From Ceratodon purpureus (taxonomy: Eukaryota; Streptophyta; Bryopsida; Pseudoditrichales; Ditrichaceae): 64,000 bases of DNA. This document shows positions 1 to 25,459 of this stretch, piece by piece; the stretch's first letter is position 1; each line of letters opens with the position of its first letter. The DNA lies in NCBI GenBank assembly GCA_014871385.1, contig CM026421.1, positions 21,938,865 through 22,002,864 on the forward strand, read 5' to 3'. The notes beneath the pieces are model-generated. The model was not told the origin of the DNA. It saw only the letters and a list, made by a program, of their open reading frames with translations, and did no database searches. The position numbers were made by a program, and so were the translations under genes.

Positions 1-109
1 ACAACTGTGTCGACGAGTAATAAAGAGATGATTAAGGCGTTAACAAAAATGCCCTCTATTATACTCCCTCATATCATAAGCCACCGTTGGAACTCTCGGA
101 AGGAATTGG

Positions 110-260
110 AGGAGGTGGTCGGGGGGTAACCACGACATGGATGAGTGGCCTAAACCCATTGTAGGATCCGACAGCAACATTCGGGGATTTGTCCATCAGG
201 GGTACTACGGACATGGGAACAGAGCTGCAGTGGCATGGAATTCCGACAGCCGGGTTACCA
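110..260. repeat. Diverged copy of palindrome-centred repeat
   Basis: This stretch shares its layout with the segments near 1.9 kb and 2.4 kb: a 'gtggcc(t/a)aaacccattgt' block, the GGATCCGAC core (here TGTAGGATCCGACAG, one arm mutated), then 'ggggtact(a/g)cgg' and, further on, 'gacagccgggtt'. It is the most diverged copy. No coding role is evident and the element type is unknown. Confidence 0.5.
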
Positions 261-706
261 CAATATCCGGTCCAGATGATACCTAGCCAGATAATAGTGA
301 GGGTTTGAGTACTGCCCGCGTGGGTGTCGGTTTGCATCGGGGACGAGGAATTCATCATGCACGCCCGCCTAAAGTGCGGAATGGTCATGGGAATTGATGA
401 GGAAGGTTTTGGTTGATTGATAGAAGCGTTATAATACATACAGTGCAATTTGCAAACCTCATATGTAAGGAGTGGTGCTGATTTCAAAGTGATTATATAT
501 GTATTAAAGGATCAAAATGAGAACAATACAATGATTCTTGCAAAGGCATGTTGCGAATCTGCGATCAGTTCACGCTGTCTACTTCCTTGTCATATACTCA
601 TATACATAGGTGAAAATTTGATGTCTCTCTGCATACGGCTGTGCCTCAGCAACCTAGCGGGCCATGTACTACGGAGGACAATACTGGAATGTTGCAACAA
701 TAGATG

Positions 707-1380
707 TCAAACGGGAACTTCCTTCGCCACCTCCGATACAGACTGCAGACTTGGACCTATCACAGAACTATCACAAATCCATCTTTCGCCATTTCGTTTC
801 CATAGAGAAATCATGCGCAGAGTAGGGCACTGCGTCGAAGGGTTGTCAACAACATTAAGAACCTGCAGCCCCGAATACACTTCCTGGCGGTACATGTCCC
901 GCCAGAAATCGACTCTGAGAAACGTGACTGGGTCGGGTGGGGAGGGCTGCGCAAAACACAACGTGACGCTGTTGCCGTCCGGGAAGAACCCCACCTGACT
1001 CAGTCGATGGAAGGTTGTGGACTCACTCGGAGGAATATGAGGTGTCATGATTCCTCCAGAAGGTGCTTCCTGAAAACCTTGGCTAGGTACCCAGACGAAA
1101 AGCATGATGCACCTCATCTTCTTTGGAGCGTCAGTGGAATGAAGAATTGATCATCATAGAGCACACTGCAGGTAAACACCTTCAAAAGCCACGTCTTAAA
1201 ATTCTGAGACCAATCCTCATCGGACTGATAGAGTGAAAACTCAATCTTGGCCTGCGCGGAGGGCTTGCGAAATACTATATCCCCGATCTGCGGATCTTTC
1301 ATGGAGCTGGTGTCTAACATAATTCGCGATCTACGGCCTAGGCTATAACAAATCGGATTCATTGCGAGGTCCATTGGCAT
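707..1380 (-). pseudogene. Unrecognised coding-like ORF pair, possibly one frameshifted gene
   Basis: Two minus-strand ORFs, 1114-1380 (88 aa) and 707-1117 (136 aa), overlap by four bases (ATGA) in different frames. Together they read like one soluble protein: the first ends in FFIPLTLQRR and the second continues with MRCIMLFVWVPSQGF. I recognise no family. The overlap may be a one-base frameshift in a decayed exon, an unrecognised splice, or chance. No promoter or splice context decides between these. The second ORF also carries no strong motif. Confidence 0.25.
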
Positions 1381-1699
1381 CAGGTGGAAATGACCCAGCG
1401 TTCTTCAATAACCTCATATATAGAGATCAGCCCACAGGCAGTATGAGTGAGCCGGCGGCATTTACGATACTACTGTAATGGTTTAGGGTGAAAAGGTGCG
1501 ATGAATCATCGTCCCAGAAATTTGGCAGTGTTATGGCTGTATTAAGGTGAGTAAACTGAAATTTATGAAACCGAGGTCATTATGATGGCGCACATCTCAG
1601 TAACCTCCAACAGATTGCTTCACTGTCAATTACCATGGAATTACCAATAAAACAACTTCTAGGCGTTAAAGTCCTAGATTCCTGTTTAGGGCTAAAGAC

Positions 1700-2050
1700 C
1701 TGCACCTAGGTTTGAGGCATCAGATCAATGCTTTGGCTGCGGTTATTACGGTGTTATCGGATACCTGCAGAGTTTAATCATCAAGACGGCCCACTGTTCT
1801 CAACAATCATTACTATTTACTACTGTCGTCAGTGGCAAAATCCCAACTCGCTGTCCATCACATACCTATGCAACGAGGGTCGACCGAGGCCACCTATGAC
1901 ATTGGTTACGGGCAAAAACCCATTGTCGGATCCGACAATCGCTTTCGGAAGGAGGTCGACATCGGGGTACAGCGGCCTAACGATAGGAGCTGGAGTCCTA
2001 TAGAAACTCGAGAGCCTGGTAAAAGTAGCCCCCGGGCCTGCTAGCACTTA
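1700..2050. repeat. Palindrome-centred repeat, copy 2
   Basis: Diverged direct copy of the 2160-2560 segment. Shared blocks in order are 'gatcaatgc(t/c)', 'tggct(g/a)cggtta', 'caacaat', 'cgagggtcg', 'caaaaaccca(t/c)tgtcggatccgacaatc' (spread over about 1910-1940), then 'ggggtac(a/t)gcggccta'. The centre TTGTCGGATCCGACAA at about 1924-1939 is a perfect 16-bp palindrome. Confidence 0.6.
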
Positions 2051-2159
2051 AACCCCTCTTACTGTGGAGCGCGCTTGAAGTAACATTGGTGCCAGTTCGA
2101 TGAATTAGAGAACCCATTCAACGTGGGAAGATGCTAGATGACTGAGAATTTGTTTAGGG

Positions 2160-2560
2160 TGTACATGAGATCAATGCCGTGGCTACGGTTATATTCGATA
2201 ATAAATGCGGAGTTACCGGCCACCTGCATCGTTCCATCATCCAAACGGCTCTGTGCGCTCAACAATTATATTTTTTAACCACTGGAAGATGGATATTGGT
2301 GGACGAGAAATACCTCATCTCTCATGAGTCGCAATAACCAAAGGAGGGGTCCGTCAGAAAACTATCCGACGAGGGTCGCCTGACGCCACCCACGACATTG
2401 CTGAGTGGCCAAAACCCACTGTCGGATCCGACAATCACTTTTGGGAGGAAGTCGAAAGCGGGGTACTGCGGCCTAGGCCTAAGAGCCGGAGTGGGAATGA
2501 AACCCGACAGCCGGGTTGGAGTGGCACCCCGGCTGGCTCACACCCGGCCCATTATTAATG
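2160..2560. repeat. Palindrome-centred repeat, copy 3
   Basis: Second near-tandem copy of the unit at 1700-2050, offset by roughly 0.5 kb and diverged by substitutions and indels. The centre at about 2419-2433 reads CTGTCGGATCCGACAA, with one base of the palindrome changed. It is followed by the same 'ggggtactgcggccta' block and a 'cccgacagccgggttgg' segment also found in the copy at 110-260. No ORF is conserved across copies, so a structural or mobile-element origin is more likely than coding. Confidence 0.6.
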
Positions 2561-2963
2561 TACAGTGGGGTTATCTATCGCGTCTGCCGGTTCCATGATT
2601 GAGACAGCCCATTCAGAGTGGAACGTACCTAGATGAATGATATTTCGCTAGATGAGTGATGATTGTCTGACTGTCCCGGTAGCCATGTAAACCGAGACAA
2701 TTGCGTAAGTGCAATATGAGTGAGAAGGCATATTTCACACAGAATATAGATGTATTTAAGAAGCTGAAATGAATGTCATACATGCCATCTACGGTTGCGC
2801 ATCTGAGATTTGCGGAAAATGAGTAGTGCCTTCTCCCTTATTCTAGAACGTAGATAGTATAACGAAGTCGTCAAGGTAGACGACCCTAAAGTTGGAGCGA
2901 AGCCGGTTCATGATTCGCATCCACGGGAGTTGGGCTAGGAGGTTAAAGTGGCAACAACGATCC

Positions 2964-4088
2964 TTAGAATGTTACGAGCTCAAGAAGGCCGCTCTCGAGG
3001 ATCGTCTTCACTTCGTTAAAGCTGAGAGTTGGAGCATGGATGTAAGAGTCCCGATGCTTTTCAAGGTTGCATATCGCATTGTAGATGTAGTAAAGATGCT
3101 TGCAAGGGACCCAGGGAGGACGTTTCCCAAGGGACTTGACGGACATCTCCTTGAAGTTGGGGCAGGTGCATCCGAGCTCGGGGCCAACTGTGATCTTGTA
3201 CAAGTTTGACTCAGAAACAATCTCGGAGGCAAGGCTGATTATGCAACCAAACCCAAGTGTTGGTATCATTGTCACGGATTGGATATGAACCGTGAGTAGA
3301 AGCGACGACGCCCAATTGTTCTCGTGCTCGGTTCTAGGAACCCGGTTGCAGCGACGAATCTTGAAACCTCCACGCACTGTAGGATATAGTCCAGGAGCAT
3401 CGGGTACAACCAAGTGCGAGAGTTCAAACCGTGGCCGCTGTGGAATGCTGCCGTCGTCGTCATGGAAAACTCGTTGAGAGGGTAGCTCCAGACGTTGAGG
3501 TAGTCTAAAACCAGCAGCCTCTAGGTCCAAAATCTCTCTCTTTGTCAGGCGAGTTCCACGCTTCACGGGCCAGATAAGCGGAGGGGGGGCCATGCTTGAG
3601 ACCCAATTCCGTTTCGTGCCCATGACACATCTCTGAATGTCGTCGTTACAGAAGCAAAACTGCATCCATTTCTGACGATCCTTCCTGACTTCTGTAAAGG
3701 TGCCCCAGTAGCATGGCACAACTGTGGTCTTCCCTCCGCGTACGAGCCTGGCCTTGCACTTCTTGTCTGTCTTTGCCTGCTGTACGAAACATGCCTTTGC
3801 ACAGCCCTTCGGCAGCGTGACAAGATGCTACTTACTGTCGTCCACGTCCGTCTCCTCTACTGCAGTTACGTGTGGACAAGCCGTATTCTCGTCGGGGCTT
3901 CGGACGGGCGAAGAGGCTGCGTCCACAAGTACGGGTTCGGCTTCGACCCGAGCACGCGTCTTCCTAGTGGCCACCCGTGGTTGTGAGAAGTTTACTTTGT
4001 CGGGTCTGTGAGAATCGTATTCGGATCCAATTGGTTGATCCAGCTTCCGCTTCGTTGAGCCAAAGATCACTTCGCCTTCTTTGTAGGG
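2964..4088 (-). pseudogene. SWIM zinc-finger protein gene, interrupted by an in-frame TAG
   Basis: A minus-strand frame runs from an acceptor-like AG near 4089 to the stop at 2964, broken once by TAG at 3828-3830. The 3' part (251 aa from 3719) contains a SWIM signature, C-x-C-x19-C-x-H (CTCPNF ... VPCKHL), at residues 184-208 of that segment. SWIM domains bind zinc and occur in MULE-type transposases and in plant FAR1/FHY3-like regulators. The 5' part is basic and polar. A coding-like minus ORF at 4135-4398 may be an earlier exon. No transposase DDE motif was seen, so whether this is a host gene or transposon-derived is open. The single stop suggests recent decay, an undetected small intron, or a sequence error. 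Confidence 0.55.
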
Positions 4089-4734
4089 CTAACGGGAGAG
4101 CATCTGTGGAGCGTCGTGGAAGTGTTCCGTGGCATCAGCAAGACGTTTGGAAATTGCCGGACTTCTGAGCCCGCCGTAAACGGAGCTCGGCTTTGCTCGG
4201 TCCTTTACCTGGGTTTTCTCCTCTGAGGTAGGCGCTATAGTTTGTGCACTGCATGAAGCCCCGGACATAGTCGTCGACTGTGGCCGTGTACAGGCTAATC
4301 CCACGGTTGCCTGACATCTGAAGCCATATATTATGGACACTCAGGGGAAAGTTCGTATGTGAGCGGAGAGCACAGAATGGAGAGCACAGAAATGACAAGT
4401 AGCCAAATTTTCAAAAGCAAAGTAGACCCTATAACCGTAGAAAATTACTAAATTAAAGCTTGATTTTGACACTTTTATTAGGAAAAGGGTATATTACCGT
4501 GGAAATCAGGGTTATCTCTGGTAAGAATTTATTACGTTTGTTCTCTAAGATACAAATTAGGGCTGATGTCATGATGACGTCATGCATATATTTTGTAAGA
4601 TTTGTCATGGGTTTAGGCAAGATACAATGATGAGGCGTTAAGTTTTAGATCAAACAAATAATTCTTTCATAGGATTATGTAAATGCACAAGGAAAAAAAC
4701 AACTTTCACAGAACATAAAGGAGGCAAGGTTTGA

Positions 4735-5740
4735 AAACTTCCTGGAATATTTCAAAATTCGTGTATAATATCTTAACTGCTGAAACCAAGATATACCTTG
4801 TTAGAGTCCTTGTCTTCATCGAAGATTACTCTCTCTTCCTAGGCAGCGAAGCTTCTTCATTTGAGTGATACAAGTAAGAGATTCACAACATGAAACAGCA
4901 CTTGGTAAGCTGGGTTCAACAGAAGGAGGTCACTCTTGGTTTCTTGAGCTTGTTTCTAGGTGGCGTATTTGGATAGTGACACAGTCCTTGGCATTCCTCT
5001 CTGTATGCGAAGGTAGCGTACGAGTTCGGGAGGGTCAATCTGCAAGCTTGCGTGGAACGTTTTAAGACTACAACAATTTGCTGTGTTGCGCGATGCCGAA
5101 GGTGCGTAATGCGAGATCGAGGAGGACGAGAGCGGCTGTAGGTTTGGCCTGAAAGGCACCGGCGAGTTATGAGGAGCTGCGGCCCTGGCTGCTGGAGGTG
5201 GAGCGCGCCAGGGAACGAGGCATGGACCTGCCACCGTTTAGGCACATCGGAAGCCTCCATGTTGGTGAAGGTGAATGGCGTTGGACAGTGCTTTGTACCA
5301 ATGAGCTTCTCCTTATCATGGAGTTGTCCCTAATCCCGTATCCCTTGCCATCCACCGTCGATGAGAATCCAGTTGTTCAGCTGCCCGAAGTGATCATATC
5401 GGATGGCGAAACTTGCTGGTTTGATATGGACAAGAGTTGGACTGTATATCCTCCAAAGGATTAGTACTGTGAAGACTAGTGGGGTGTTCGAATACATTCC
5501 TTTAGATTTGGTCCCTTATTGGATCTAGATACGAGTATTCCAGCATGATGGTTTTAGATAATATAGATAATTATGGGAATAAGAGAACTCGAAACCAGCG
5601 AAATGAAATGGTCTTAAAAGTTCGTGGAATATTTCAGAGTTCGTGTACAATATTGGAGGTGCTCAAACCAAGATGTACACCAAGTCAGACTACTTGTCTT
5701 CGTCGAAGAATTCTCCGTCTTTAGATAAGAGCATTCCTAG
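4735..5740 (+). repeat. Duplicated upstream segment (4735-4860 and 5619-5740)
   Basis: Two diverged direct copies share 'ggaatatttca(a/g)a(a/g)ttcgtgta', 'aaccaagat(a/g)tac' and 'cttgtcttc(a/g)tcgaag'. Each lies a few hundred bases ahead of a short plus-strand ORF (5155-5464 and 5855-6364). The arrangement looks like an old tandem duplication that carried a promoter or 5' UTR. The two ORFs themselves are not obviously alike. Confidence 0.5.
5155..5464 (+). CDS. Unrecognised ORF, 3' end of a gene or remnant
   Basis: An open frame from about 5155 ends at TAG 5462-5464. It encodes an acidic, Trp-containing protein tail (SYEELRPWLLEVERARERG ... DMDKSWTVYPPKD). There is no upstream in-frame ATG before a stop; the first internal ATG gives about 80 residues. 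Amino-acid composition looks protein-like, but I recognise no family. It follows the first copy of the duplicated upstream segment and precedes the F-box-like ORF on the same strand. Confidence 0.3.
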
Positions 5741-5854
5741 CTTAAGTGTCAAGCAAGAACCTATATAAGCCTTAGGAGACGTCCTTGAAGTTGTATAAGC
5801 TCAATCATTTCTGTAGAACTTAAGCGTGTACTTGCTAGGGAGTTGTTTGAAGGT

Positions 5855-6364
5855 ATGGGCGATTCATTTGAGGTCGTTGCTTATCAAACGGTTTTATAGG
5901 ATTTGTTTAAGCGGATGGCGGATGGGCCTAACCCCTGGGATCATATAGGTATTGCAACGCAGGGTTGGACTCCTCTGACGGTAATCACGTTTGAAGACGT
6001 CGAGAACGCTCGTGCTGTGTCGAAGAGGTGGAAGCGTGAGATTGACAATAGTCCTGAATACGCATGCCTTCGACTAGCGAGGTGGGATTACTTTTCGTAC
6101 GAGGGTCGCCATTGGAGTCCAAAGGACGAATACGAAGTTAATCAGTTCAACATCAACTGGAGTGTTTTTAGGAATTCTTGGACACTTTCAAATCCAATTA
6201 ACAACGAGAGGTTGGAGACAGCGTCCCTTGGAGAACTTAGTTGCGTTGAGTTAGATCAGTTGAGGTCATTGCTATCTGCCAATGGGAATGAGGTCTTAGA
6301 TGTGCCTGAAGGAGAGAAAATTTCTCCGAGGGATGGTATCTGGATCTCTCACAAGAATATGTAA
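5855..6364 (+). pseudogene. F-box-like protein remnant with early in-frame TAG
   Basis: The frame opens at ATG 5855, meets TAG at 5897-5899 and continues open to the stop at 6362-6364. Around the stop, TVL-stop-DLFKRM followed by ITFEDVENARAVSKRWKREI fits the weak F-box pattern LPxDLxxRI ... VCKRWR. F-box proteins are substrate adaptors of SCF ubiquitin ligases. No LRR or Kelch repeats follow: the rest is Trp-rich and ends after about 150 residues, which is short for the family. The stop falls inside the presumed F-box, so the gene is probably non-functional unless translation starts downstream at ATG 5918. Confidence 0.4.
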
Positions 6365-6423
6365 AATGGCTATGGAAATGTGGGATTTTGAATGATTAAG
6401 ATATAAATTACAGCGCAATATAA

Positions 6424-6535
6424 ATTTTGAGCATTTCTTTTGTAACATTTCATTCTTCGTATTATATTTTGAGCATTTCTTTTGTAACATTTCATTCTTC
6501 GTATTATATTTTGAGCATTAGAATTGTGACATTTC
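6424..6535. repeat. 42-bp tandem repeat, about 2.6 copies
   Basis: The unit begins 'attttgagcatttcttttgt' and repeats with period 42 (TTTTGAG centred at 6429, 6471 and 6513). The first two copies are identical; the third diverges after 'gagcatt'. It lies between the F-box-like ORF and the 3' end of the minus-strand ParB/methyltransferase-like gene. Confidence 0.9.
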
Positions 6536-6686
6536 ATCCTTGACATACAAGGAGACGATTTGGAAAAAAGAATCATAAGAAGTTCAGGTTTAGGGTAGTA
6601 GAGTCGAGGAAGGAGTACGCAATGAACTCGAATAAAATTAAATCAAATCAAATGAAAACAACAATAGACCGAAGCCTCCTTCAAAC

Positions 6687-9600
6687 TCACAACATGCTAC
6701 AGTCGCTACTTTCACTCTCAGAACTAGATGACTCTGAATCTCCTTCTACAGCCTCTTCATCGACGAATAGAAGGGCCCTGGGATCAAAAGTAGTTGGCCG
6801 ACTAGGAACATATGTGAGGGCTCTAGATTGAAACGCCTGTGCTAAGTCCTCTGCATAGTCCGGAAGTATATAACGCTGAATCGGGCTGGAATGAAGACGC
6901 CACGATGGAGTGGACACTGCTGTTGGCCCACGTGGCGGTGTTGCCAAAAATACTCTGCAATAGAAAACCGATTGTGGTTAGATCGAGTACGTAGAGCTGC
7001 GAAGAGGAGCAATGCTTGGAGAATTTGAACAAAGAATAGAAGACTTACACCACTTATCAGGTCTTGGTCTCTTTGGAGGCGCTTCGTCTGCTGCTGCCGT
7101 CCTAGGATGTTTAGGAGGGCCGATGGCAGATGACGTAGCCATATACGGTTTGAGAAGGGCGTTGAATATGGCTTCGTCCTCCTCACAAGCTATAATATGA
7201 CGACCAATACTCTGGCAAGCCTTGAGGGAGGCACCTGAAAACACGTAGCACAGAAAAGTAGTGAGTCCCTATGGAGAAAATCAGAGGATTGAAAATGCAG
7301 AAACTGTTAATGGAGGATTACATTTTCCTGCCGACCACTCAAAGACTATGTCACCGGGCATGGTCATCTCCTCAATTATGCCCTGCATCATCTCAGGGGC
7401 TTTCTCCCTCGGGCCTCTCCATGGCACCTCCCCATTCATGAGCCGCGAGTCTGCATCAGTGAAGTTGAGAATGGCATCACTCTCGGTAATGTGGAGGTCG
7501 TTGTAAACGACATCGAATTTCTTCGTTTGAAAAAAAAACTTGGATGGGGGGTGACCACCACGAATGAAGACGCGCACCCAGAATCAAAGAGACTGCGAGA
7601 CACAAAAATATGTGAGTGTAATTAAAAAGAAAACTTAGTAGAATGCAAAGACAAGCAAAGATTATGATGTACATACCAAGAAGCGGGGCATCGTAGGGTG
7701 AGCCAAGCCTAGTGCATTGAAGCCCCACCAGTCTTGGTGCTGCACGAAGCCATCAGTAGTAGGCACTTCGGAAATCTTTGAAGCCAAACGTTGGTCGTTG
7801 TTGTGGATGATGCAGAGAGCACCATCAAACTGCAAGAAATGTCTTGCAAATTCAAAGAGGTCCTCCAAATAATCCTTGCCGCGTTTGTTCCAAGACGGAG
7901 CGACGTAGACAAGATTGGATATCGTGCAGACCGGAAGATTCTCAGGAATGTTGGCAATGATCAAGTCGAATCCCAAGTGATTCTCCTGTTTGCATCGATC
8001 AGGAACTCGGTTCTCACGGCCTGCTCCAAACTTGAGTAAATAAGAAAACAGAGTTAGAAATTATAAGGTTTACAGTAATAAAAGTATTCAAGGGAAAGCA
8101 CAAAACAACGGATCATACCATTCGAATGATGTCTAGACCCTTGTTCCATTTGGGATCGCCACCAACGTCTTCAAGTTTCTTGTGTCGGGATAGAAAAAAT
8201 TCACAGAGGAGTTGATGACATAAACCTGAGAGGAATTGAGAGTTCCAGCGGAAGAGGAAGTCTGCGCGAATTTCTTGGGTTTCCTCTGCTCGAGGAGACC
8301 TCTGGTGACCTCGGAAGCACTAATCGAGGAAGGAGCCGGCAAAGAAGTTAGAGAAGGCTTCGTAACGACAATACCTGGAGAGGGCTCTGTTGCCTTCTCA
8401 ACTGGCGCGGAAGACTCCGCACCAGTTTGCTGTGATGCCTGTGACTGAGAACGCAGAGATTTCAGTCGCCTTCCTCTCCCTCTCTTTGGTGGTGGAGCAG
8501 AAGACTGATCCTGCTCTCCTTCACGACCTTCTGCATCATCCACGGAGTCCTCCACCACAACCTCACCCCCATCGTGTAGAGTCTTGACGTCTGCCTCTGA
8601 GTCAATCGTGAAACCACGAGAGCAATCAAGATACCAGCATCCCTCAAGCAAGTGAGGAGTTTTGTACCTTTTCAGCTGTTGGGGAGAGTACATACACTGG
8701 TCCGAGGTTCTCGACGTCCAAGCAGTAAAGAACTTAGGCAGTTGCTGAACTTTAAGTGCCCCCTTCAGAACAAGCTCTCGCTTAAAGTACCTAAGGAAAC
8801 CAATATGGAGAAGGTTAGTATGAGAAAGATATGTAGAGCTCATTATGGAATTTGAATCTGACAAAGGAAAGTAACTTACCGGTAAGTAACCCGCTTGACA
8901 ACCTCAGCGGTTCCAGGGAATTTAGCGAAGATGGACTTGTTGTCGAACACCTTCTCAGCCTTTTTTCCAACGAATGTAGAGAAGGCCTTGTCCCATAACA
9001 GAATACGTGAACTCTCGACATAATCGCCCGGCTCTTGTACATTAGGAAATGCATTCCAATTGATAGCGAGGTTCTCCGCCTTGCATATGTCCTTGACTTC
9101 GTTGATGACGGCTTCCTCCAACTAAGATACAGAATACATATCAGTAGTAGTGAGAAAGAAATGAGGGAGAGAAGAAATGATCAAGTCATTGGAAAGGTTC
9201 TTGAATGAAACTTACCCCGGCCCAGAATGAAGCTTTGTTCAACCATGGGTCAAAATCGGTGTCCTTGAATTCAGCTGGCAGAAATTTGTAAGACTTTCGG
9301 GAACTCGTAGATGAGTTCCACCACCTCAACCAACGAGCCTTGTACTTGGCCTCAACGGCCGCTAGAACAACCTTCTGAAGCTTATCGAGTGACATCTCAG
9401 GTTTAGAGTTGTCACTGTAATGCCGATTAATCTGCAACAAGTAGAGAAGATTTAGGAAATATGAATACAAATATAAAGTAGTGAAAAGAAGTACTTAAGT
9501 CAACCACGGTAAGGGTATCACCTCATTGAGGAAGTCGTCACCGTTCTTGGGATTTGCAATTGTCAAGTACTTGGTGAAGTCCTTCTTCTTAATGGATTCG

Positions 9601-11060
9601 ACCATGTTGTTTGAAGCCGCAGTCATGGCATCCCAAACGCCTGCTGCGGTTTGGTCTTCAATGGCTGTTTTCTCTTTGTAGATTCTTGCAGCTTCGTCTG
9701 AGGCCGCCACGATTTCTCTCTGGAAAACATAGTTATCCCCCTCTTTAGTACACAGAAAAATCAATTGTCGAATGGAAGTGTGAGGGAGGATGGATCAAGA
9801 GCTTACACGATAAAGAAATGCAATGAAGACTTCGATTGGCAAGGTAAACCAGGATGGATTAGATGGTTTGTGATTCAAAGACAATTTATACTCCTCTGCT
9901 GTGAGGAGATCCTTGAATTCCTCCAATTTCATCACACCGAAGGAGCGAATTCGAAAAATTTTAGCCGGAAGATTACACTTCACATGATCATTTTCTGTAG
10001 ACCTGTGAGAATAGACGGTAGTTAGTAAAATGCATGAAGTACGAGTTCAAGCAGCGCGCAAGAGGTGTGATCAAAATAGAGGGTTTAAATTCTCACCAAT
10101 TGATGTCGTGCATGGCATGAAGAAGGTTTCCCACATGACCACGTGGGTCAAGAACAATGCAATGCACAGAGATGTGCCACGCTGGATCTTCGCTGTGATG
10201 GTTATTGATGTGCCTGTACCATGCGGCAAGGCGATGGTTACCTTCCCAGCCATAGAACATCTTCCCGGAAAACTCCTTCCAGTCCGTGTCGGCCAAGAGC
10301 TCAACTTCGAAAGCGTCATTCACTTTCTGCCAGCAAGGGCTCCAGTCAGCCTTGGTCTCCTCGGTGACATCGGCTGTCTTCTCTTCGTGGTTGTACATGG
10401 AAATGTACATGACTCTGTCTCCATCTCTGTAGCCTTTGACAAACTCTCGCTCCAAATGTTGAACTCCCATTTCTCCCACAGGTCGCACTTTTGCCATTGA
10501 GAGCATTCTGCAAAGGGGAACTAGGATACGCGACTTTGACTTTGGAAGAATTCGGAGATTGTTGATGACGCCTATGGAGTCCGATTTGTGTTGTACCCGA
10601 TGTCCCAATTCACTGTCCACTACATTTGTCAATTCACTAGGACAAGAGGGCGCTGGCAACGTATCCTGTGTCTTGGTTACCTGCCATAAGTCATACATTA
10701 TGAGAAATCAAACAATTATGAAGAGTAGTAGAACAATAGCTTCCTGTACTAATACATCTCGTTTGAAAAACAAATCATAAGCCACAGTAAGAAGTTGTAC
10801 GTAGGCCACTATGTACGTGGAGCACGGCTATAGTAATCCCTAGCCTCTCTACAGTTCCAATGACGGCGCCTCCTCCAAAAACGCCTGGTCTGCTGGACAG
10901 GGCAAGGCAGTATAGCCGGGAAGGCGAAGACAACATGGGCTGGCCTCCTCACTCTAATAGGAGAGGAAGGAGAAAGTGGAGACATCGGTGGGGTACCAAG
11001 TCGTGGAGAAGTACGCATGTAGCCCGGGGATGTAGGCTCATAGACTAGAGACATAGGCAT
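6687..11060 (-). CDS. ParB-like / N4-N6 DNA methyltransferase-like protein, 12 exons
   Basis: Proposed exons (minus): 10953-11060, 10097-10680, 9807-10002, 9522-9719, 9216-9431, 8880-9121, 8226-8790, 8119-8178, 7677-8030, 7322-7520, 7049-7234, 6687-6952. All phases join into one frame of about 1057 aa. Residues ~100-225 look ParB/Srx-like: VRPVGEMGVQHLEREF, then GWEGNHRLAAW at ~180-190 in place of the family's DGxHRlxA. The middle (~230-700) is unrecognised, with a charged, Ser/Pro/Arg-rich linker. The C-terminal region fits a bacterial-type amino-methyltransferase in permuted order: FDLIIANIPEN (~744-754, replacing DPPY), WNKRGKDYLEDL, EKAPEMMQGIIEE, PGDIVFEWSAGK (~896-907), then GRHIIACEEDEAIF. 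The tail is acidic and Ser-rich. The start is uncertain: the first coding exon is open back to its acceptor at 11219. Residue ~842 could be preceded by six more (acceptor at 7539). Role unknown; nucleic-acid binding or modification is inference. Confidence 0.7.
8179..8225 (-). other. 47-bp putative intron or frameshift lesion
   Basis: Between exons 8226-8790 and 8119-8178 the frame of the methyltransferase-like gene continues only if 47 bp (GT...AG, with a pyrimidine-rich stretch before the AG) are removed. That is unusually short for a plant intron. Without removal, the frame ends 33 codons later. The downstream 20-codon exon (KLEDVGGDPKWNKGL...) is protein-like and splices cleanly onward. 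Confidence 0.45.
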
Positions 11061-11479
11061 GTACTGAGGAGAATGGACCTCGGGAGGTCCACTACCTAAA
11101 CCTACAGGGTTTCCTAAATCACACCTACATAAATGGGGCTGATCGAATGAATCCGAGAGGTCGGAAACATTGATTACTGAGATCGGGGAACTGATGGACA
11201 GGGGTGCATCTGAGAATACCTACAAGAATAAGGACAAAGAGAATGTCAAGTTAACATTATAGTTTACAAAACTTTGAAAGGAAGTTCAATCTAGGATGCC
11301 ATGTTCAATACAAAAAGGAAATAAGATTAAATTACCTCAGTTTATGCAGGAGTTGGACCATCAGCTTCAGTCGCAGTGAGTTGATCCGTGAACTCCTACA
11401 ATACAAACAGAATATACATTTAATGAATCGAAAAAAATATAATATAAGAAGAAGAAAGCAAGGGCATTCACATTGACAT

Positions 11480-11935
11480 TGCCGCCATCTCCCTCCCCAA
11501 CACCCACTTTCGGCACCGAATGTGCCCCCCAATCCCCCATTGCCCTTGCGGCCTCCCAATCTGCAGCTTCCACTGAGTGCATCGCACGGCCTCCCCCCCC
11601 AACTTCCCCTACCCCAACACCCACTTTCGGCACCGAATGTGCCCCCCAATCCCCCATTGCCCTTGCGGCCTCCCAATCTGCAGCTTCCACTAAGTGCATC
11701 GCGCGGCCTCCCCCCCCAACTTCTCCCACCCCAACACCCACTTTCGGCACCGAATGTGCCCCCCAATCCCTCCCTTCCCTTGCGGCCTCCCAATCTGCAG
11801 CTTCCACTGAGTGCATCGCGCGGCCTCCCCCCCCAACTTCCCCCACCCCAACACCCACTTTCGGCACCGAATGTGCCCCCCAATCCCCCATTGCCCTTGC
11901 GGCCTCCCACTCTGCAGCTTCCACTGAGTGCATCG
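11480..11935. repeat. 117-bp minisatellite, about 3.9 copies, open in several frames
   Basis: The unit recurs with exact period 117 (CACCCACTTTCGG at 11501, 11618, 11735 and 11852). Because 117 is 39 codons, reading frames are preserved in every copy, and long ORFs exist on both strands. The minus-strand frame (HSVEAADWEAARAMGDWGAH per unit, ATG 11933) ends at a GTGAAT donor-like site and could join an exon at 11340-11399, where it would soon stop. Whether it is a 5' exon of the neighbouring ParB/methyltransferase-like gene is not decided by the sequence. Confidence 0.9.
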
Positions 11936-12589
11936 CGCGGACCCGGAGGATGGTGGTTACCCTTTTGTGGATGAGGACTCGGATTGTTTAGAGTACGCTG
12001 GAGAAGATGTTTACGATGCGGTAGATAGTCCTGGTATCCCACTCGTACTTCTCAGCGACGAGGACGAAGATTCGGATAAGTAGATGTGGGCTTCTCTAGT
12101 TATCTGACATTCAATTGCATACGTATTTCTCGGCTCTACGAGATGATGCTTCTGTTAAGCACTTAGAGCCCTTCGAACAGTTTTGAATGTTTACCACCAT
12201 AAGTTATATGTAAATAAATATATCGGCTTTTAACATATTTTTGCATTCCGTGGATTACGTGCTAAGAAGCAAGCTTTAATTCATATGAAGCAACCTTTCA
12301 AATAAGTAAATGCTAGGTTTAGATTCTCCAGAATAAGTACCTAAGAGCTAGTGATGCATCATGAAGGAAAAGCTTGGTCCCACTGCGGTGAGCAAAATCT
12401 CGATGATAATAATAGAACTTTAAAGCAAAAGCACTCATCACCGTTGTAAGAATCACGAACTAGACAAACTTTGACGAACGCGATGATTTCTATTCAAGAC
12501 ATATTAACAATCAAGTAGTCAGAAGTAAGCGAGTAAAGATGATAGTAGTAGGAGTACAACCATGCGCGCAACGGAGGTCGGTGGATTGC

Positions 12590-12680
12590 CTTCCTCTCGG
12601 AAATCGGTTGTCGGATCCGACAATGAGTTTTGCAGTTCTGGCAAGACGGCCGGGGTCGAGAGATTGACATTCGCTTGCCT
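12590..12680. repeat. Palindrome-centred repeat, distant copy
   Basis: Contains 'aaatcggttgtcggatccga' continuing 'caatgagtttt', with the same perfect 16-bp TTGTCGGATCCGACAA palindrome as copy 2, about 10.7 kb away. Flanking similarity is limited to a few short words. A related imperfect palindrome, CTGTCGGAATCCGACA, occurs near 14236. Confidence 0.5.
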
Positions 12681-12898
12681 CGTTGGTACGCGGGTAACAG
12701 GTACAGTCCGCGGGTATGATCCTACAGAATGGATATCAATGTTCATTCGGAAGATGAGATTACAACATCCAATGATGGTAACAATTTCTGAAACCCAACT
12801 GTGGTTATGCTTCAAAAGTCATGGATGATATCTCATCGTCGATGCATGGAAAATTCTAGGTCCTTATTATATAAGTTTCTAAACTAACCATCCTAATG

Positions 12899-13015
12899 AA
12901 AACTACACAAACCTTGCACATTTTAATCCTGGAAGTCTTTATGCACATACGAAACAAAACTACACACACCTTGCAGATTTTAATCCTGGAAGTCTTTATG
13001 CACATACGAACTAGT
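12899..13015. repeat. 57-bp tandem duplication
   Basis: Two copies of a unit containing 'ccttgca(c/g)attttaatcc' and 'ggaagtctttatgcacatac' are spaced by exactly 57 bp. They differ at only a few positions. The short plus-strand ORF through it is likely a by-product of the period being a multiple of three. Confidence 0.9.
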
Positions 13016-13378
13016 TATAGCTTGGCACAAGATGCTACGCTTCTAACTTCAGTGTCGCCAAACTACTCCCGCTCCGGACTACTACATAGAACTCTGATGA
13101 AATTCTGAATTTCGCCTCCTCGTGGACCCCTGAAAACAGCCAACCTTAGTACATGTCATTGCCTTCAAAGGCACTCTATAGCATGACATAAAAAGAACAT
13201 AAGTTCAACTGGCAGAGTTCATCCTACAAAACTTTGAGGACTCTGAATTACTTTGAAAGCTATACCCTTAACCGAACAACAATCCTCAAAATTTTACAAC
13301 ATAACTCACTTCGCAAAACATGAGTTCAAACTACATAAAACTTCTTCATGCAAAACTATTTCGACTAGGGCGTGATGT

Positions 13379-14014
13379 TTACCTTCACTTTGCTGACCCT
13401 TTCCCGAGTACGGCATTCAGGTGCGCCTTAGGACGTATTGGCAGCTTCAAGTATCCACAATAGACTGCCCGTGGTGCCCAGTATTTAGGAAATACCTTTC
13501 TCTCCTTTGACGACGACCCAGGTCCGGAAGAAGAGGATGAACACATGCTGTAGCCAGGAGGTGGACCCATTACCTCCATCTCGTAGCTGTTCCGAAGGTG
13601 GTCACGCAGCATGACCTTCTGCTGCAGCGATAACTCACAGAGGTCCGTGTTGACAAGACTCTCGTCGATCTCAAACGGGATAATCCGATCGGTCATAAAC
13701 AGTACAAGTGCCTCAGCCCAGTACGCATGAACCATACCAGTACCCCACTCATCTTTCCGCTTCCTCACATCTCGCGACTCCTTGAATGCCACTACATACG
13801 CACACCATGCGGGCATGGAATCTATCAGTCGCTCCCACTTGTCACCTCTCTGGCGCAAGTTCTCCAGAAGCGTCATATAGTCATAACTCCACTCTGAGCT
13901 CTGAGTGCAATGTGGGTGCAACTCCGGCATGAGGTCGGGAAACAACTCTGCCATCGCAGATTCAGGAGTCACCCAACTCTGACTAAAGAGGTCCGTAATC
14001 ACCGCAAAGTCCAT
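13379..14014 (-). CDS. Unrecognised protein-coding exon (about 211 aa)
   Basis: A long minus-strand frame opens at ATG 14014 (MDFAVITDLFSQSW), 6 bp after an acceptor-like 'tttctacag'. It runs to a donor-like GAAG|GTAAAC at about 13379-13380. The sequence is rich in acidic and aromatic residues, with a Ser/Gly-rich stretch (CSSSSSGPGSSSKERK) before a basic, Pro-rich end (YLKLPIRPKAHLNAVLGKG). It looks like a genuine internal or 5' exon. No further exon could be assigned with confidence. I recognise no domain. Orientation matches the ParB/methyltransferase-like gene next to it. Confidence 0.45.
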
Positions 14015-14865
14015 CTTGCTCTGTAGAAACTTACAAACGACAAGTGCAAAATGCGGAAGAAATCGTAGAAATTAACAAATGACAAATGCAAAATGCGGAG
14101 TAAAACGTTATCCCAGACACATATAAGGTGAATCTGTTGACTGCTCTCTTGATATCTTCCCTCATCCTTGGAAGCCTGCCCTAATTCTGGCTTCTTTATG
14201 CCAGGTACTACACTAATCAATTACTACAATTTTAGGCTGTCGGAATCCGACATAGACATTTTAGTAAATTACAACTTCAGGGATAGACCGTTTAGTTCAG
14301 GGTTTCAAGCCAAAATTAATGCACTATGACGGCACCGGCATGGCAGGTACTCATACATGGCGGCTAATGAATGATCTTCATGTATCTCAATTACTTCTTT
14401 TGATTATTACGGTGCCTACATTGCCATAGATTGCCTACATTGCCTACATTGCCCCTTAACTCTACTGGAAGTCTGGATGAATTTACTCCCAACGTGCAAA
14501 TAATTAGCTCCGTTGGAGCACTGCTTTATCACGCATGCCATTCTCATTCAGTGTGTAATTACTTGTCCCTTGTGAAATATGGAGTATCCTGACAAACCAA
14601 TGGGAAAGACATCTAGTCCACATCCCTAGACATCGCCGTCATTCCTCATTTTTTTGGTAACAGAAGACATTTACTCTGAGATGATGTGAAGATAGTAAAG
14701 CAAGCTCTCATCCTAAACGTATCACCCAGGGACTATCTTTTCGACTGTTCCATTTGTAAGCGCAATGGATCGTTCATTTGTAATCTCTGCTAAATATTAG
14801 TGACCCTCTCACTTTTACGAAGGTGTTTGCTATTACTCTTTGATTCCTTTGCGTGCATTGCAGTC

Positions 14866-15582
14866 ATGGACTCATCGGCTTTGCCTAAAGCGCTTGCTCC
14901 GACCCATGTCACGGACCTAACCTCTCCAACTCCAAGAGTGGAGATCAAGTCATCGATGCCAGCAGACTCTGAAATGCTACAGGTTTACTTCTTTTCTTTC
15001 ACCTCCCTTTGTTTGAAACTAGATTGGCCTGCTCATTTCTCATGAAATGCTTTGTTGGACCATCGGCATTGCATCGATGTTATTTCGGTTTTGCCATCTT
15101 TAGGCAGACCTCTGAATATCAAACATATGTGGCGTGATTCGTATGACTCCTGTATCACAATGTTATTGCAGGACAATTTGCCATGGCACAATTCGGAGTT
15201 GCGTGAATATATATGGAGGGTGACGTACGAGGACAGAGACCAGCGGGTAGGCAAACAGGTTGATGTATTTTCTGAGGTTGAGTAGATGAATCAAGTCCTT
15301 CGATCCAATCGAGCCCTAATAGACTGGACAGAGGACGACGTGCGCTCGCTCAGGCGCATCGAGTTCCTTACTGGAATAACCAGCGTGGAGCCAGAGCTTT
15401 TCCAGTACTACATTCCTCGTCCTAGTTTGACCTTTACGCCTGCTCATGTGAACTTCGATGGGAACCCCGGGTCGTCGGCCGCTGTGGATATTACAGACTT
15501 ACAGGATGTTGTTTGGGAGTCTGAGCGTAGTGCCTCACCCGACCCATTCACCTTCCTAAACCAAGAGAGAGCGGAGGAGTAA
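14866..15582 (+). pseudogene. Unrecognised gene-like ORFs with an in-frame TAG
   Basis: A possible first exon (ATG 14866 to CAG|GT at 14982) encodes MDSSALPKALAPTHVTDLTS. A continuous frame from 15052 to the stop at 15580-15582 is broken only by TAG at 15283-15285. It reads as a soluble protein (HMWRDSYDSCITMLLQDNL ... WTEDDVRSLRRIEFLTGI ... QYYIPRPSLTF). Joining of the two parts in phase could not be shown. I recognise no family. The isolated stop in otherwise coding-like sequence suggests recent inactivation or an undetected intron. Confidence 0.35.
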
Positions 15583-16012
15583 GAGTAGAACGTGATGTTA
15601 GTATGCTAGCTTTGACTAGACAGCTCAACCTTACCGACATTAACATTTTTGTATTAAAAATATTATATAATGAAGGTACCACGCCAAATTTCCACGGTAA
15701 TAGGCTCCACATTACCGATCCTGGCGGTCATTTTTGCAACCACGGCGGCGAAAATTTCTGCTCACTTTTGAACCGCGGCGGTGAAATTCTCTGCTCTCTG
15801 CTCACTGCTCACTGCTCACCGCTGCCACAGTAGCATCGCTGTGCAATAGATGCTTCCTTGCAACATGTGTCGTCTCGTTATAATTGGAGCCGCCTCCTCG
15901 TAGCAAGAACTTCCCTAGCAGTAGGTGCCTCCTCCTCTCACTACCTCAAAGTCAATGCTCCTCTTACTGCCTCAGTGCATCTTCTCCACAAACTCACTAC
16001 CCCTATCCGCAA

Positions 16013-19545: not shown

Positions 19546-20167
19546 ACATACAAATCAAATATTTGAAAATCAATAAAGCTAGTAAAAATCAAAAGGTTGG
19601 CATACAGAAAAGTAAAAATCAAGTTTATAGAATGAAATTGAAAATGTTGTCTTACTTGTCATTGGTATTTGATGAGAAAATTGCTCCACCTTGGAGCATC
19701 AGTATTGTTTGTTTGATGCTTATTCTCTTTAAATTTGCTCTTGTATCTTGCAATTTAACATTCTTGAGCTCTCAATTCACTTTCCTTAGTTGTTCAAACA
19801 TAAAAACATTAAAAATTAACATGGAAGCTTTGTATACTTTAAATAATCAAGTTAACATGGGAAGCGTTGCAGTGAGTCTTACAAATAATCAAGATAACCT
19901 CAATTAAATACAACAACATTACCAAGAAATTAAGTTTATAAATTTGAAAGAAATGTATACTTACTGTGTTTTCACCGATTGACCCAAAGTAACAGCTTTG
20001 GCAATGGAATCTAAAGAGTCTCCATATTTCTCAACAAATAGATGCCACAATCTGTTGCATTGCCTTTAGACTGTTGATGAACTTGCATTCTCACAATTTC
20101 GCACATGATTATTGCAACATTTACCACAAGTGAAAAAAAACATCTAGATTATCACTGATAACTATTA

Positions 20168-20362
20168 CTCCCTCCGTCTCACTAAAAGAGCATGGTTTGG
20201 TAAAATAATCTGTCTCAAAAAAGAAAGTGGTTTCTAAATTTGGCAACTTATTTCTATATTTGGCAACTTATTTCTAAAGTTGTCTAACTTGTTCTAAAAT
20301 TAGAACTACCCTTAAATATGCTATTATTAGCAAACCATGCTCTTTTAGTGAGACGGAGGGAG
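20168..20362. mobile_element. Stowaway-like MITE (195 bp)
   Basis: Perfect terminal inverted repeats of more than 30 bp begin CTCCCTCCGTCTCACTAAAA at 20168 and end with the complement at 20362. They are flanked by a TA duplication on both sides. CTCCCTCCGT termini with TA duplications are typical of Stowaway elements, mobilised in trans by Tc1/mariner transposases. The interior carries short tandem words ('tatttggcaacttatttcta'). Confidence 0.92.
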
Positions 20363-23300
20363 TATAATTTTTACAGCAAGACTCTAACAAACATGAAGGC
20401 AATTATTGCGACCAATGGTCAGCCTACTGACAATTTGTAGACCTACTAAAACTAGTCCTTTTTAAGGTAGTGGCACATATTTCCGACTGAATTTCAGATT
20501 CAGATAGCTGGAATGGTGGGACATAATATTTATAAATTTTCATGGCTTTGCAAAGTTAGTAGAATGCAATCCCCTAAAGAAATTTTGATTTTCAATAAGT
20601 TTGTAGTTACTTATGAATTTAGAAAGCAATGGCAGTAGAGTGACCATCCGGCGTACATAGAGTGGGTGCTGTACATAGAGATGGATTCCTGAAAATAAGC
20701 AAAGGTGACTTAAAATCTAAGCATGCAAGCCTCAAAAATAAGCATTGTGGGTGGGCTAAAACAATTCGCATGGTGTCAGATGGGCACATGTCATTGTCCC
20801 AAAAAAAAGAACTCTTAGAATGCTAAATTCCCCCATGACAGCCTTGTTATGGGCTGGAAGGATGTTTAATTCCGTCCACATGAGTCCCTTGCCTCACCCA
20901 CTCTCCCCCCAAGGTAGCCACGTCGTGGCCTCATAGTCACCCAAAACAAATCCAGATCCGTTTTGGGTGGGACTAATTCCCGCCCACCCAACCAACGGCT
21001 CCCCAACGTCTCCCTGGTCACCCAACTCCATCCCCCCCCCCGCAGATGCGACCCCGCTCCCCTCTTCCCCCTCACCTCCGACCCCCCATCCAATGTCCCC
21101 GCTCCCCTCCGCAGGAGCTCTAACCCTGATCTGCGAGGCCGGCCCTTCTCTGCTCCCCTCCGCAAGAGCTCTCTCTCTCATCTCCAACGCTGCCAGCACA
21201 CAAGCTCCACCGCTATGCTCCCCTTCGATGTTGCCTTGGGCAGCGCTGCTCTCTCCGTAGAGTACCCTCTCGGCGCCAACCTCCCCGCTCCCTGCCGTCT
21301 CTTCGTCGTCTCGCCCTGGTCTTCTCGCATTGCCCTCTCCGCAGCAGGGCGCAGCCTTCCTCTGTTGCCAAAGCTCCTCGCCCATCCAGTTTCATCGCCT
21401 CCTGAAGTCCCCGCCACTACCACTGTGCCTCTGAATGCTTTCGAAATCCTCTCCATCAGGGAGTAAATCCACTCTGCGAGTGTGTAGAGGATTGAGTGAA
21501 TGTGTAGACTGGGGATTGTAGACTCTTGTGTGGAGGTGCTGCATCATCCACGGATTCAAGGAGGATGGAGGCATACTTGAAAGACTTGGAGCATTGGCGG
21601 GTGTATGGGCAGGACGCAAGTAGTGGGGCGTCGATCAAAGGTGGGGGAGCGTGGGGGTGTTTGCAGCAGGCCGCGGAGGAGGGCGCACATCCATAGAGTT
21701 CCAGCTGCCACTGAAACCAGGATATACAACCTGCCTTGGATCCGGCAGCAGTGGCTGCCACTCCTAGAAGCCCCTCGCGACCTGGGGTTGTATGAGTGCT
21801 CTCTGCCCATGCAGAGCTCTCTCACCGCCCCCCGCAAAGTCTGAATGGGCAGCTGCGAGCTGCTGAGGCACAACGCCCCCACTGCCAAGATCCCACGCTC
21901 ATCGGCTCCTGCTGAGGCACAGCGCCCCCACTGCCAAGATCCGCGGCGTTCATCGGCTTCTGCTGCGAGGGCGACCCAAGCCGCGACCCGGCTCCACTTC
22001 CTCGGCCCCTTCTCCCACGGGTAGCAAGTGCGCCCCTCTGCGCTTAAGCTTCCAGCTCCTTTTTTTTTTTTTTTTTTCAGCTCTTGCTTTTGCACGATCT
22101 TCTTACTATTTTTGCAGCAGCTCCTTTTGCACCTTGCTCTTTTGTGGCCTCCTTCTCTTCCTTCTTCTTCTGTACAGCAGCTCTTGCAGCCTTCTTTGCA
22201 GCCAAGATGTTCTCCTGTGCCTTGTTGTATTCTTCTGATATTAGAATGATGCTCTCTGTGTAGTCTAGCAATGGTTGTTGTCTCCTCCGTTTTTTCGCTG
22301 GGATCAGTTCAGGGAGTGAGAGGAACTGGCTTATGTTGTTTTCGTTAGATGCCTGCACCTCTGCTAGAAATGTTGGGTCAATGGCAGTGTGTTGCACATT
22401 TTTGTCATAGTTGCTCTCTTCAGGATGCGGCACGTCTACATAGAAATGCTGCCTTACACTCACTGGTGTGTTCTCCTGCTCTTCAGATCCACTCCGCCCT
22501 GTTAATGCCGCCCCCCTGTTGCTGCCGGTAGCGCCGCTGTTTGGTCCCCTTCTGCTGCGGTAAATACCCTGCCCACCCCCTTCGGTTATTTGTTGCTCAT
22601 CGGCTTGGTGGTTATGGTCCTGGTCGTCATCTTCCTGCTCATTGCCTTCATAAAATGCTCCTGTTCTTGGTGTTCCTTCGTGACCGTCGTCACTGTCTTG
22701 GCCGAAATGCTCCTGGTTGTCGCCCTGGTGCCGTCGTAGTCTCCCTGTTCTTGGTGTTTGCTGGCCGTGTTCGTCTCGGTGTTCTTGATCCTCCTCCTCG
22801 TCGTCTTGGTGTTCTGTTTGTCTTAGTGGTCGTGATTGTTGGTCTTCTTGCTGTCTGTCTTGGTGGACATCGTCATCTTGGTCTTCTTGGTGTTCATCGT
22901 TGGTGTTGGGTCTTCGTCGTCTTACTAGTCGTGATTGTTGGTCCCCTTGCTGTCTGTCATGGTGATCTTTATCGAAGTCGTCGTCTTAGTCTTCTTGGTC
23001 TTTATCGTCACTGACACTCTCACTACCGCCCACAGCAGATCTCCCCTGGCCCCCCACTGCCGCCGACCGCAGTCTCTGATCGCTGGACCCCGCTGCCCCA
23101 TCCTCCCCTTGCGGGCTCATGGCCTCCTCCCCCGCTTGCAGGCTCATGGCCTCTTCCCCCGCCCCTGCAGATTCCTCCCCCTCTGACTGCAAAGCATTTT
23201 CATTAGGGACATAGTTCTCCTGACCTTCCTTAAATCCTCTACTTGGCTGCATGCTTGCAAGCACTGCATTTTCGTTATATGGCCAAATCCCTGTTTTCCT

Positions 23301-24075
23301 GAAACCATACTTGATGTTCTTGGGTGTGAGAGCCTTTTCTAGTGCCTTAGCTGTCCATTCACATAAATCTTGTTTTTCAACCTTTTTCCCTTTGTTGTGC
23401 AGTGTCCAATTGTCTCTAATTTGTCTAAAAGCAGTCTTAAAAGGCTTGAAGCAAGAGATATCTAGAGGTTGAAGGGCATGGGAAGTATGGGAGGGTAGTG
23501 AAATGATGTCTAACCCTGAATTCATAGCCATTGCCACCACTTCTAGAGCTACATGCGAATTATGCCCATCCAATATGAGTAAATGTCTGTTTTCTGTACT
23601 AATTCCCACTGTGTCCTTCATATTCTTGATGAAGTGTGAAATCCACGACTGGAACAGCCATTTCGTCATCCAAGCATTGGGCTGTATAGCCATCAATGCC
23701 TTATGCTCACATCTGTTCACATAGTCCCCCATAAAATATGTACCCTTCAATATGTAAAAGTTAGGAATTTTCCCCCCTACTGCATTGATGTATGATAGGA
23801 CTGATAGATGTTCCCTCTGATCTGGCTCAATGTTATGTACAAATTTGGAGCCCAATTTTGCAAGGACAGTGCCCCCCCCCCCCCCCCACTTCTTCCAGCT
23901 TGTACACAAGATTCATCACAGTTCCAAATGTGTCCAGCAGGATAATTGAAGGTATTGTACATGTTTTTTAGGTTGCAATATAGAGATGCAACACTACTTG
24001 GGCACAACCCCCTAGCCCTACCAAGTTCTAGAGGTTGGCTCTTCCTAGCAACTAGTTCAGGGTGTCTTTGTTTAA

Positions 24076-24955: not shown

Positions 24956-25393
24956 TTAAAAGACTTGAGCCATGATTTTCCAGGCAATCCAATGTCACTC
25001 TATGGCGTATCCCTGTTTGAGTGGCTTCGGCCACCTTTAATTTTAGCTGCATTGAAGTTAAAGGGTGGCCCAAGTCTTGCATCTTAAAACAATAATCTAC
25101 CAATTTTTTTTCCTCAACTTCATCTAGGACAGTTTTTGGGCCTCTTTTTCTTGTCAAAACAGTGCCAAATAAGTGATCTCTAAGAGAGGATGGAGGAATA
25201 CCAAAGGTACGAGATGCTGTCCTTATCTTCATCCCATCATCTTGGATTGCATCCAATGCTTGTTGGAGTTGAGCACTTGTCCAATTCCCTGTCTTCTTCC
25301 TTGCTGCCCTCCTTTGAGTCCTTTGCACCTCCTCTTGACTGCTTGGTGTTCCCTCCCCTCCTTCTTGGCTGCCCATGTTGATGTTCTCCCCAT

Positions 25394-25395
<2 letters not shown>

Positions 25396-25456
<61 letters not shown>
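25396..25456. repeat. Poly(C) run of 61 bases (poly-Gly codons on minus strand)
   Basis: An uninterrupted run of 61 C lies within the N-terminal part of the Tigger transposase, encoding about 20 Gly. On the minus strand it is poly(G), capable of G-quadruplex formation. Length may be unreliable in the assembly. Confidence 0.9.

Positions 25457-25459
<3 letters not shown>

Follow-up and report, generated by a model that had tools for sequence, protein, structure and literature searches.

The 64,000-nucleotide stretch of the moss Ceratodon purpureus analysed here as the window (C1:21938865-22002864, in a genome of 362.5 Mb and 151 contigs) contains a minus-strand spliced coding region that runs from position 10680 to a stop codon at 6687-6689. 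This gene lies inside a large DNA transposon and joins a region that we call ParB-like to a DNA-methyltransferase-like region. It comprises the following parts, in window coordinates:

10097-10680, minus strand: first resolved exon, with the ParB-like region and the motif WEGNHRLAAW
9807-10002, minus strand: exon whose phase fits
9522-9719, minus strand: exon
9216-9431, minus strand: exon
8880-9121, minus strand: exon
8119-8790, minus strand: one exon in the family, one base shorter in the window, with a probable frameshift; split at 8226-8374 in the first model
7677-8030, minus strand: exon with the catalytic motif IV, NIPE in the window
7322-7520, minus strand: exon with motif I, which binds S-adenosylmethionine (SAM), AGKC in the window
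7049-7234, minus strand: exon with the end of the methyltransferase domain
6687-6952, minus strand: last exon, with the C-terminal tail and the stop at 6687-6689

The exons between 10680 and 6687 obeyed the GT..AG rules, and most of their borders recurred in another copy of the gene. The splice-aware open-frame score of the segment 6500-11400 was 2678, compared with 1122 ± 212 (maximum 1655) for 30 dinucleotide shuffles and 1268 for the opposite strand; the best-scoring splice path deviated from the exon list in a few spots and omitted 8119-8225. GC content was 49% in exons and 39% in introns. When copy L055 was searched by blastn, 10 of 11 exon pieces were recovered, each with AG before it and, if internal, GT after it, while exon 2 (9807-10002) was not recovered by this search. 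At the last junction two neighbouring alternative splice sites were present, one leading to a stop and the other to the C-terminal tail that we adopted. DNA identity to L055 stood at 72% for the first exon and had risen to 94-96% by the final three, a gradient that looks like a mosaic.

A sequence-only reading of this DNA had proposed a spliced gene whose exons close in phase. The splicing held, apart from one claimed intron that is absent in the family, and the closure failed for the window copy. The eleven minus-strand pieces between 10680 and 6687 gave 987 amino acids in phase only if 8226-8374 was an intron, and the closed frame of the sequence-only reading probably used this same non-intron. 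Segment 8119-8225 counts 107 bases in the window, one fewer than the 108 of all eight other copies compared (L046, L047, L049 and L051-L055, with L049 aligned from base 3). With 108 bases, 8119-8790 is a single in-phase exon, and removal of 8226-8374 as an intron throws the next exon out of phase; the segment is equally long, 149 bases, in L055. Because the 8226-8374 intron is out of phase in other copies, the eleven-exon model was dropped, and judged from these copies the family gene has 10 exons in its 10680-6687 part, not 11. Since its 8119-8225 segment is one base short relative to 8/8 copies, the window copy is probably frameshifted in the 8119-8790 exon. Searches done with the 987-residue protein miss about 50 residues, 8226-8374 having been treated as an intron.

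The methyltransferase-like region of the sequence-only reading found support at the profile level. A search of the PHROG profiles matched it to phrog_3008 (E 7.9e-8), Pfam gave PF01555 with E 7e-4 and 20.1 bits, below the curated cut-off of 26.7 bits, and a weak Protein Data Bank (PDB) match was obtained with DpnA (E 0.035). The tblastn search against phages gave 234 records at E up to 10, and among 60 of these sampled evenly, 49 were annotated as methylases. No homologue of the methyltransferase part was found at E 1 in a collection of 5.8 billion proteins, which may lack spliced plant proteins; the same collection, with the same limit, gave none for the gene at E 0.01. In an alignment with six phage enzymes motif IV precedes motif I, which is the order of the beta class. 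At profile level, the assignment of the C-terminal part as a putative beta-class N4/N6 DNA-methyltransferase domain holds.

The catalytic motif expected in such enzymes is [DNS]PP[YFW], and the SAM motif is DxFxGxG-like. Motif IV reads NIPE in the window versus D[VI]PE in all eight other window-type copies compared and VDVPE in a sister type of the gene, and [DNS]PP[YFW] was found in none of these. Motif I reads AGKC in the window versus [AT]GTG in all nine other copies compared. Judged from these motifs, the window copy is decayed, having alone lost both catalytic motifs, and the motif IV of the family appears unusual but conserved. The ratio of nonsynonymous to synonymous substitution rates (dN/dS) of the exons with motifs IV and I was 0.19-0.64 in 17 comparisons with the window.

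The ParB-like region, also named in the sequence-only reading, stood on its motif and found no match in profile or fold searches. GNHR was present in 24 of the 25 rows showing the motif (L032 has GNHC) and in 13/13 rows of alignment A4, which omits L025, L026, L043 and copy A for their internal stops and L028, L032, L033 and L035-L040 as near to kept rows. A GxxR motif at a strand-helix turn is a feature of the ParB/sulfiredoxin superfamily. A low-confidence model (mean predicted local distance difference test score, pLDDT, 47) predicted the order strand, helix, strand, strand with GNHR, helix, strand, which we take to fit ParB/sulfiredoxin. A conserved arginine is mentioned in one paper (PMC5512222). 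'ParB-like' is thus a motif-level name, which the motif and the order of elements suggest. The two structure models, with mean pLDDT of 65 and, for the alignment-based one, 47, gave no fold match at E ≤ 0.001 and were uninformative (AlphaFold). Phage tblastn with the ParB exon gave no match, and a viral origin was set aside after a single scan of viral contigs with this exon gave no relative. Gene 37 of Mycobacterium phage Amgine, considered as a possible ParB fusion, showed none in Pfam.

Ten loci were tried for dN/dS of the ParB exon (10097-10680), but for L027, L041 and L042 no alignment free of gaps could be obtained, and the value for L048 was saturated. The ratio was 0.10-0.24 in the other six of seven comparisons, five of which had dS of 1.7-2.1, near saturation, so that the ratios are rough. 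By these values the ParB exon is under purifying selection.

We then consider the element in which the gene resides. Its parts in and next to the window are:

1-15841: transposon, part inside the window; the left end lies 926 bp before the window (C1:21937939) and the right end at 15841, the whole being 16,767 bp
2964-4342, minus strand: truncated C-terminal part of a transposase, with a SWIM-like CxC..CxH motif (seen by eye; Pfam SWIM E 1.9)
13385-14071, minus strand: accessory open reading frame (ORF), with a near-identical ORF near the right end of copy A
15778-15829, minus strand: right terminal inverted repeat (TIR), 90.6% identical, across 53 columns, with the left end, which is beyond the window
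15842-15851, plus strand: right copy of the 10-bp target-site duplication (TSD) TGCAATAGAT; the left copy lies directly before the left end, outside the window

Homology among the window and copies B, C and D starts at one common position, 926 bp left of the window, and copy A, which lacks a left end, shares the right end at 15841. The terminal inverted repeat is imperfect, the two ends differing in their outermost 12 bases. Both ends were seen in the window copy only, and the TSD comes from this one copy. Copy C carries a longer transposase gene of three ORFs, DDE-like and SWIM-bearing, of which the window retains only the end; this transposase has 152 relatives at E ≤ 0.1, and a consensus of 46 sequences reads FDHVKRVK ... 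CDMQSED ... FMADSAQANW ... ERTC.FHW. The target-site duplication of Mutator-like elements (MULEs) is 9-11 bp. The 10-bp TSD, the SWIM-like motif and the DDE-like arrangement with CxxH after the second D are, we presume, features of this class, and 'MULE-like' is a label that we take from the TSD, the SWIM-like motif and the DDE-like order. Unlike a MULE, the element has imperfect ends and no Pfam MULE match: none was found for the three transposase ORFs of copy C, and ten relatives tested matched no Pfam transposase family. A PDB profile match of the transposase to Dad4 (E 0.1) was dismissed as chance. The transposase proteins P0008-P0127 (alignment A3) form a large uncharacterised family; within the scored part, the moss copy shares 99% identity with one database protein.

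The same genome gave at least 340 exon matches of the core protein (40 of 5528 candidates scored) and at least 150 matches of the sister-type ParB exon (150 of 1828 candidates scored); these counts are lower bounds and refer to exons, not elements. By identity to the query, sister-type exons form the groups A1 (85-100%), A2 (about 54-75%) and A3 (40-43%). At least ten ParB exons, counting its own locus, are identical in protein to the sister-type query, on C2, C4, C5, C9, C10, C11, C12 and C13. The introns, the TSD in host DNA and the copies on many contigs rule out contamination and agree with the earlier view of a nuclear plant gene. The option of a mobile-element gene was also borne out, as the gene lies inside a TIR transposon with a TSD and has many dispersed relatives. 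These results show that a large family of TIR DNA transposons, which has multiplied in the moss genome, carries the gene as a passenger, and that the window copy is non-autonomous and decayed: its transposase is truncated, a frameshift is probable and the two methyltransferase motifs are altered. This decay, like the palindrome arrays of related copies, had been overlooked by the sequence-only reading.

Palindromes related to one another are found towards both ends of the element:

159-174: palindrome copy, 2 mismatches to TTGTCGGATCCGACAA
1922-1939: perfect 18-bp palindrome ATTGTCGGATCCGACAAT
2419-2434: palindrome copy with a single mismatch, about 495 bp away from the palindrome at 1922-1939
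12608-12623: perfect palindrome TTGTCGGATCCGACAA
14238-14252: variant with an extra base, TGTCGGAATCCGACA

With up to 3 mismatches, TTGTCGGATCCGACAA had four matches in the window, all within the element, versus 0.25 expected, and the spacing of about 495 bp repeated in copies A, B, C and D. The palindrome TGTCGGATCCGACA occurs 591 times in the genome, where its reversed control occurs 0 times and about 1.4 occurrences are expected from length alone. In the sister-type genes of A, B2, C and D2 the palindrome forms two adjacent arrays of period 149-150, with 37, 15, 17 and 15 sites, respectively, at up to 4 mismatches. The 149-bp arrays sit between the exons matching residues up to 327 and from 327. 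Each 149-bp unit holds the palindrome once, and two unit types share 14/16 palindrome bases versus 53/133 flank bases. Since a period of 149 is not divisible by three, the array is presumably non-coding.

Genes were paired with palindromes by setting protein searches against a palindrome list that is complete for C1 and for C2 to 11,497,982. A palindrome lay within 20 kb of 4/4 genes of group A1 and 5/5 of A2 (9/9 in the two subfamilies), and of 0/6 genes of A3. Conversely, of the 28 palindromes on C1, 25 were no more than 40 kb, measured edge to edge, from the window gene or an exon of A1 or A2. A second inverted repeat, CCCTACTGTC-N6-GACAGTAGGG, has 967 sites in the genome (control 0). At L055:7733-10000 it occurs, with a variable spacer, in 10 of the roughly 11 units that make up a 201-bp tandem array beside a window-type gene on C9, and it occurs again 1.1 kb from a window-type gene at C1:18.33 Mb. 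Clusters of this repeat were also found at C1:5.40 Mb, with no gene among the matches listed, and at C1:6.07 Mb, beside copy A.

From this association we infer palindrome binding and methylation of the element by the protein of intact copies, a reading to which, with the gene as a transposon passenger, we give a probability of about 0.5. The passenger gene would encode the ParB-like region, a middle region and the beta-class N4/N6 methyltransferase domain; the ParB-like part of intact copies would bind the palindromes repeated near the element ends and in arrays, and the methyltransferase part would mark the DNA of the element itself, perhaps at GATC in GGATCC. Such a mark may help to protect the element from silencing, to set the timing of its transposition or to distinguish it from host DNA. 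Several results weigh against this reading. Pfam, PHROGs, PDB sequence and PDB fold searches gave the ParB assignment no support, and PF02195 was unmatched in the ParB-like exon, in the 13 family rows and in the whole genome, while the control matched in 10/14 genomes; one copy, L032, departs from GNHR. Even in other copies motif IV is D[VI]PE, not DPPY/F/W, and methylating activity is therefore not assured. Only 2/11 window-type genes have a palindrome within 20 kb (1/6 on C1, 1/5 on C2), and the idea that the GGATCC palindrome accompanies every window-type gene was dropped on this count. The 20-kb limit was chosen after the lists were seen, and the four A1 genes were first reached via the palindrome, which the five A2 genes were not. 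In addition, CCCTACTGTC-N6-GACAGTAGGG was not found near the window-type gene at C1:0.35 Mb.

The palindromes lie close to both element ends, as subterminal transposase sites do, copy C has a transposase gene, and the variant motif IV of the compared copies permits a non-catalytic role. The transposase could instead bind the palindrome, and a possible, if doubtful, alternative is that the palindromes are subterminal transposase-binding repeats while the ParB/methyltransferase passenger has its role elsewhere, for instance in countering silencing or in binding DNA without catalysis. The long arrays of 149-bp period, which lie well away from the ends and between exons of the sister ParB gene, argue against it, as does the dependence of palindrome presence on the ParB subfamily; the A3-group transposases were outside this comparison, and the alternative stands. 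That the N-terminal region is an unrelated DNA-binding domain with a chance GNHR, rather than a ParB/sulfiredoxin domain, would agree with the negative profile and fold searches and with the mean pLDDT of 47 of the alignment-based model. We consider it unlikely, given the GNHR of 24/25 rows, the order of elements in that low-confidence model, which fits ParB/sulfiredoxin, and a fusion to a methyltransferase like that of a published algal protein (PMC12477816). Purifying selection and recurring intron borders might also be expected of a domesticated host gene merely located in an old transposon. The many dispersed copies, at least ten of them with identical ParB exons, make this very improbable, and for the window copy, flanked by TIRs with a TSD, probably frameshifted and devoid of both catalytic motifs, domestication is nearly refuted.

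If intact copies do bind and methylate their own element, a broader and frankly tentative scheme may be drawn, in which plant DNA transposons have a self-marking system. A ParB-like/methyltransferase protein would bind element-specific palindrome arrays, iteron- or parS-like with about one site per nucleosome length, and write N4-methylcytosine or N6-methyladenine; ParB subfamily and palindrome would have diverged together, each family marking its own DNA, and D[VI]PE would define a new methyltransferase group.

The sequence-only reading had held the domain combination to be known from bacterial phages and mobile elements and not as an established plant nuclear gene; in eukaryotes it has already been reported in algal transposons. 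In the passages concerned, the brown-algal element Sola1-1_Ec32 of Ectocarpus is described as having a presumed accessory protein of 1104 amino acids with ParB-like and N4/N6 methyltransferase domains, similar proteins are noted in green and red algal transposons, and the idea that such proteins bind and modify their own element is already in print for algae, with the binding site unnamed in those passages (PMC12477816). Like Sola1-1_Ec32 as described there, the moss gene joins ParB-like and N4/N6 methyltransferase regions in a large DNA transposon; the comparison is one of described domains. The algal element belongs to a brown alga and has a Sola1 transposase. The moss element departs from that description by its TSD of 10 bp, its D[VI]PE in motif IV and its abundance of copies; its SWIM-bearing transposase had no Pfam match, and its palindromes stand in arrays. 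In Bacillus cereus, Bce_0392 is described in another paper as a ParB domain fused to an adenine methylase, with nonspecific nicking reported (PMC5512222); this protein is prokaryotic, and it too is compared with the moss gene by described domains. Among the papers listed by a literature search that covered subscription journals thinly, none concerned such genes in mosses or land plants. The moss gene is a land-plant variant of this kind of transposon gene, with candidate binding sites. This land plant offers many copies, some of them with identical ParB exons, and a pair of concrete candidate sites that go with different gene subfamilies. This makes the self-binding idea directly testable and bears on DNA marks other than 5-methylcytosine in plants.

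Next to the gene lie two further features:

10809-11219, minus strand: conserved ORF, distinct from the gene, that has YxPTSPx heptads and ends in its own stop; taken in the sequence-only reading for the first exon
11491-11940: 117-bp tandem repeat of 3.8 copies, adjoining the heptad ORF

The frame from 11219, where the sequence-only reading had begun its first exon, is coding and conserved, with in-phase GT sites at 11105 and 11078 (scores 4.1 and 3.7), and protein conservation continues to the ORF's own stop. A pattern matched the ORF end in 17/20 loci: in 15 the stop falls on one and the same codon, in L027 it comes one codon sooner and in L042 four. Thus, 10809-11219 looks like an ORF distinct from the ParB/methyltransferase gene, whose resolved part begins at 10680, and the proposed first exon found no support. 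The heptads read YMPTSPV/YEPTSPA, and by pattern search at least two were present in 19/20 loci L025-L044; their number varied from 2 to 6 between copies where unbroken (L025-L044, L013 and L055). The heptads are also present in copy A (L013), whose 50 kb examined yielded no window-type ParB gene. We take the heptads to resemble the C-terminal repeat of RNA polymerase II, and it is possible that the ORF mimics the tail of this polymerase.

Within the element, segments 4728-4837 and 5610-5721 form a 77% repeated leader ahead of two small plus-strand ORFs (5153-5461 and 5900-6361), suggesting a tandem gene pair. Copy A (L013-L015, C1:6098522-6109788) contains a nested Gypsy-type retrotransposon with near-identical copies of a 629-amino-acid ORF on either side. 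To the right of the element, a 43-bp inverted repeat, 95% identical and with CTCCCTCCGTCTC ends, spans 20166-20364 and is presumably a Stowaway-like miniature element. A DDE_1 transposase fragment (E 3e-21) and a Psq helix-turn-helix at 22986-23912 and 24945-25805, both on the minus strand, we take to be a separate pogo-like element. Likely host genes further along the window, all on the plus strand, are a GFO/IDH/MocA oxidoreductase (34522-35649), a weak Est1 match (47580-48305) and a pectate lyase (50966-51688).

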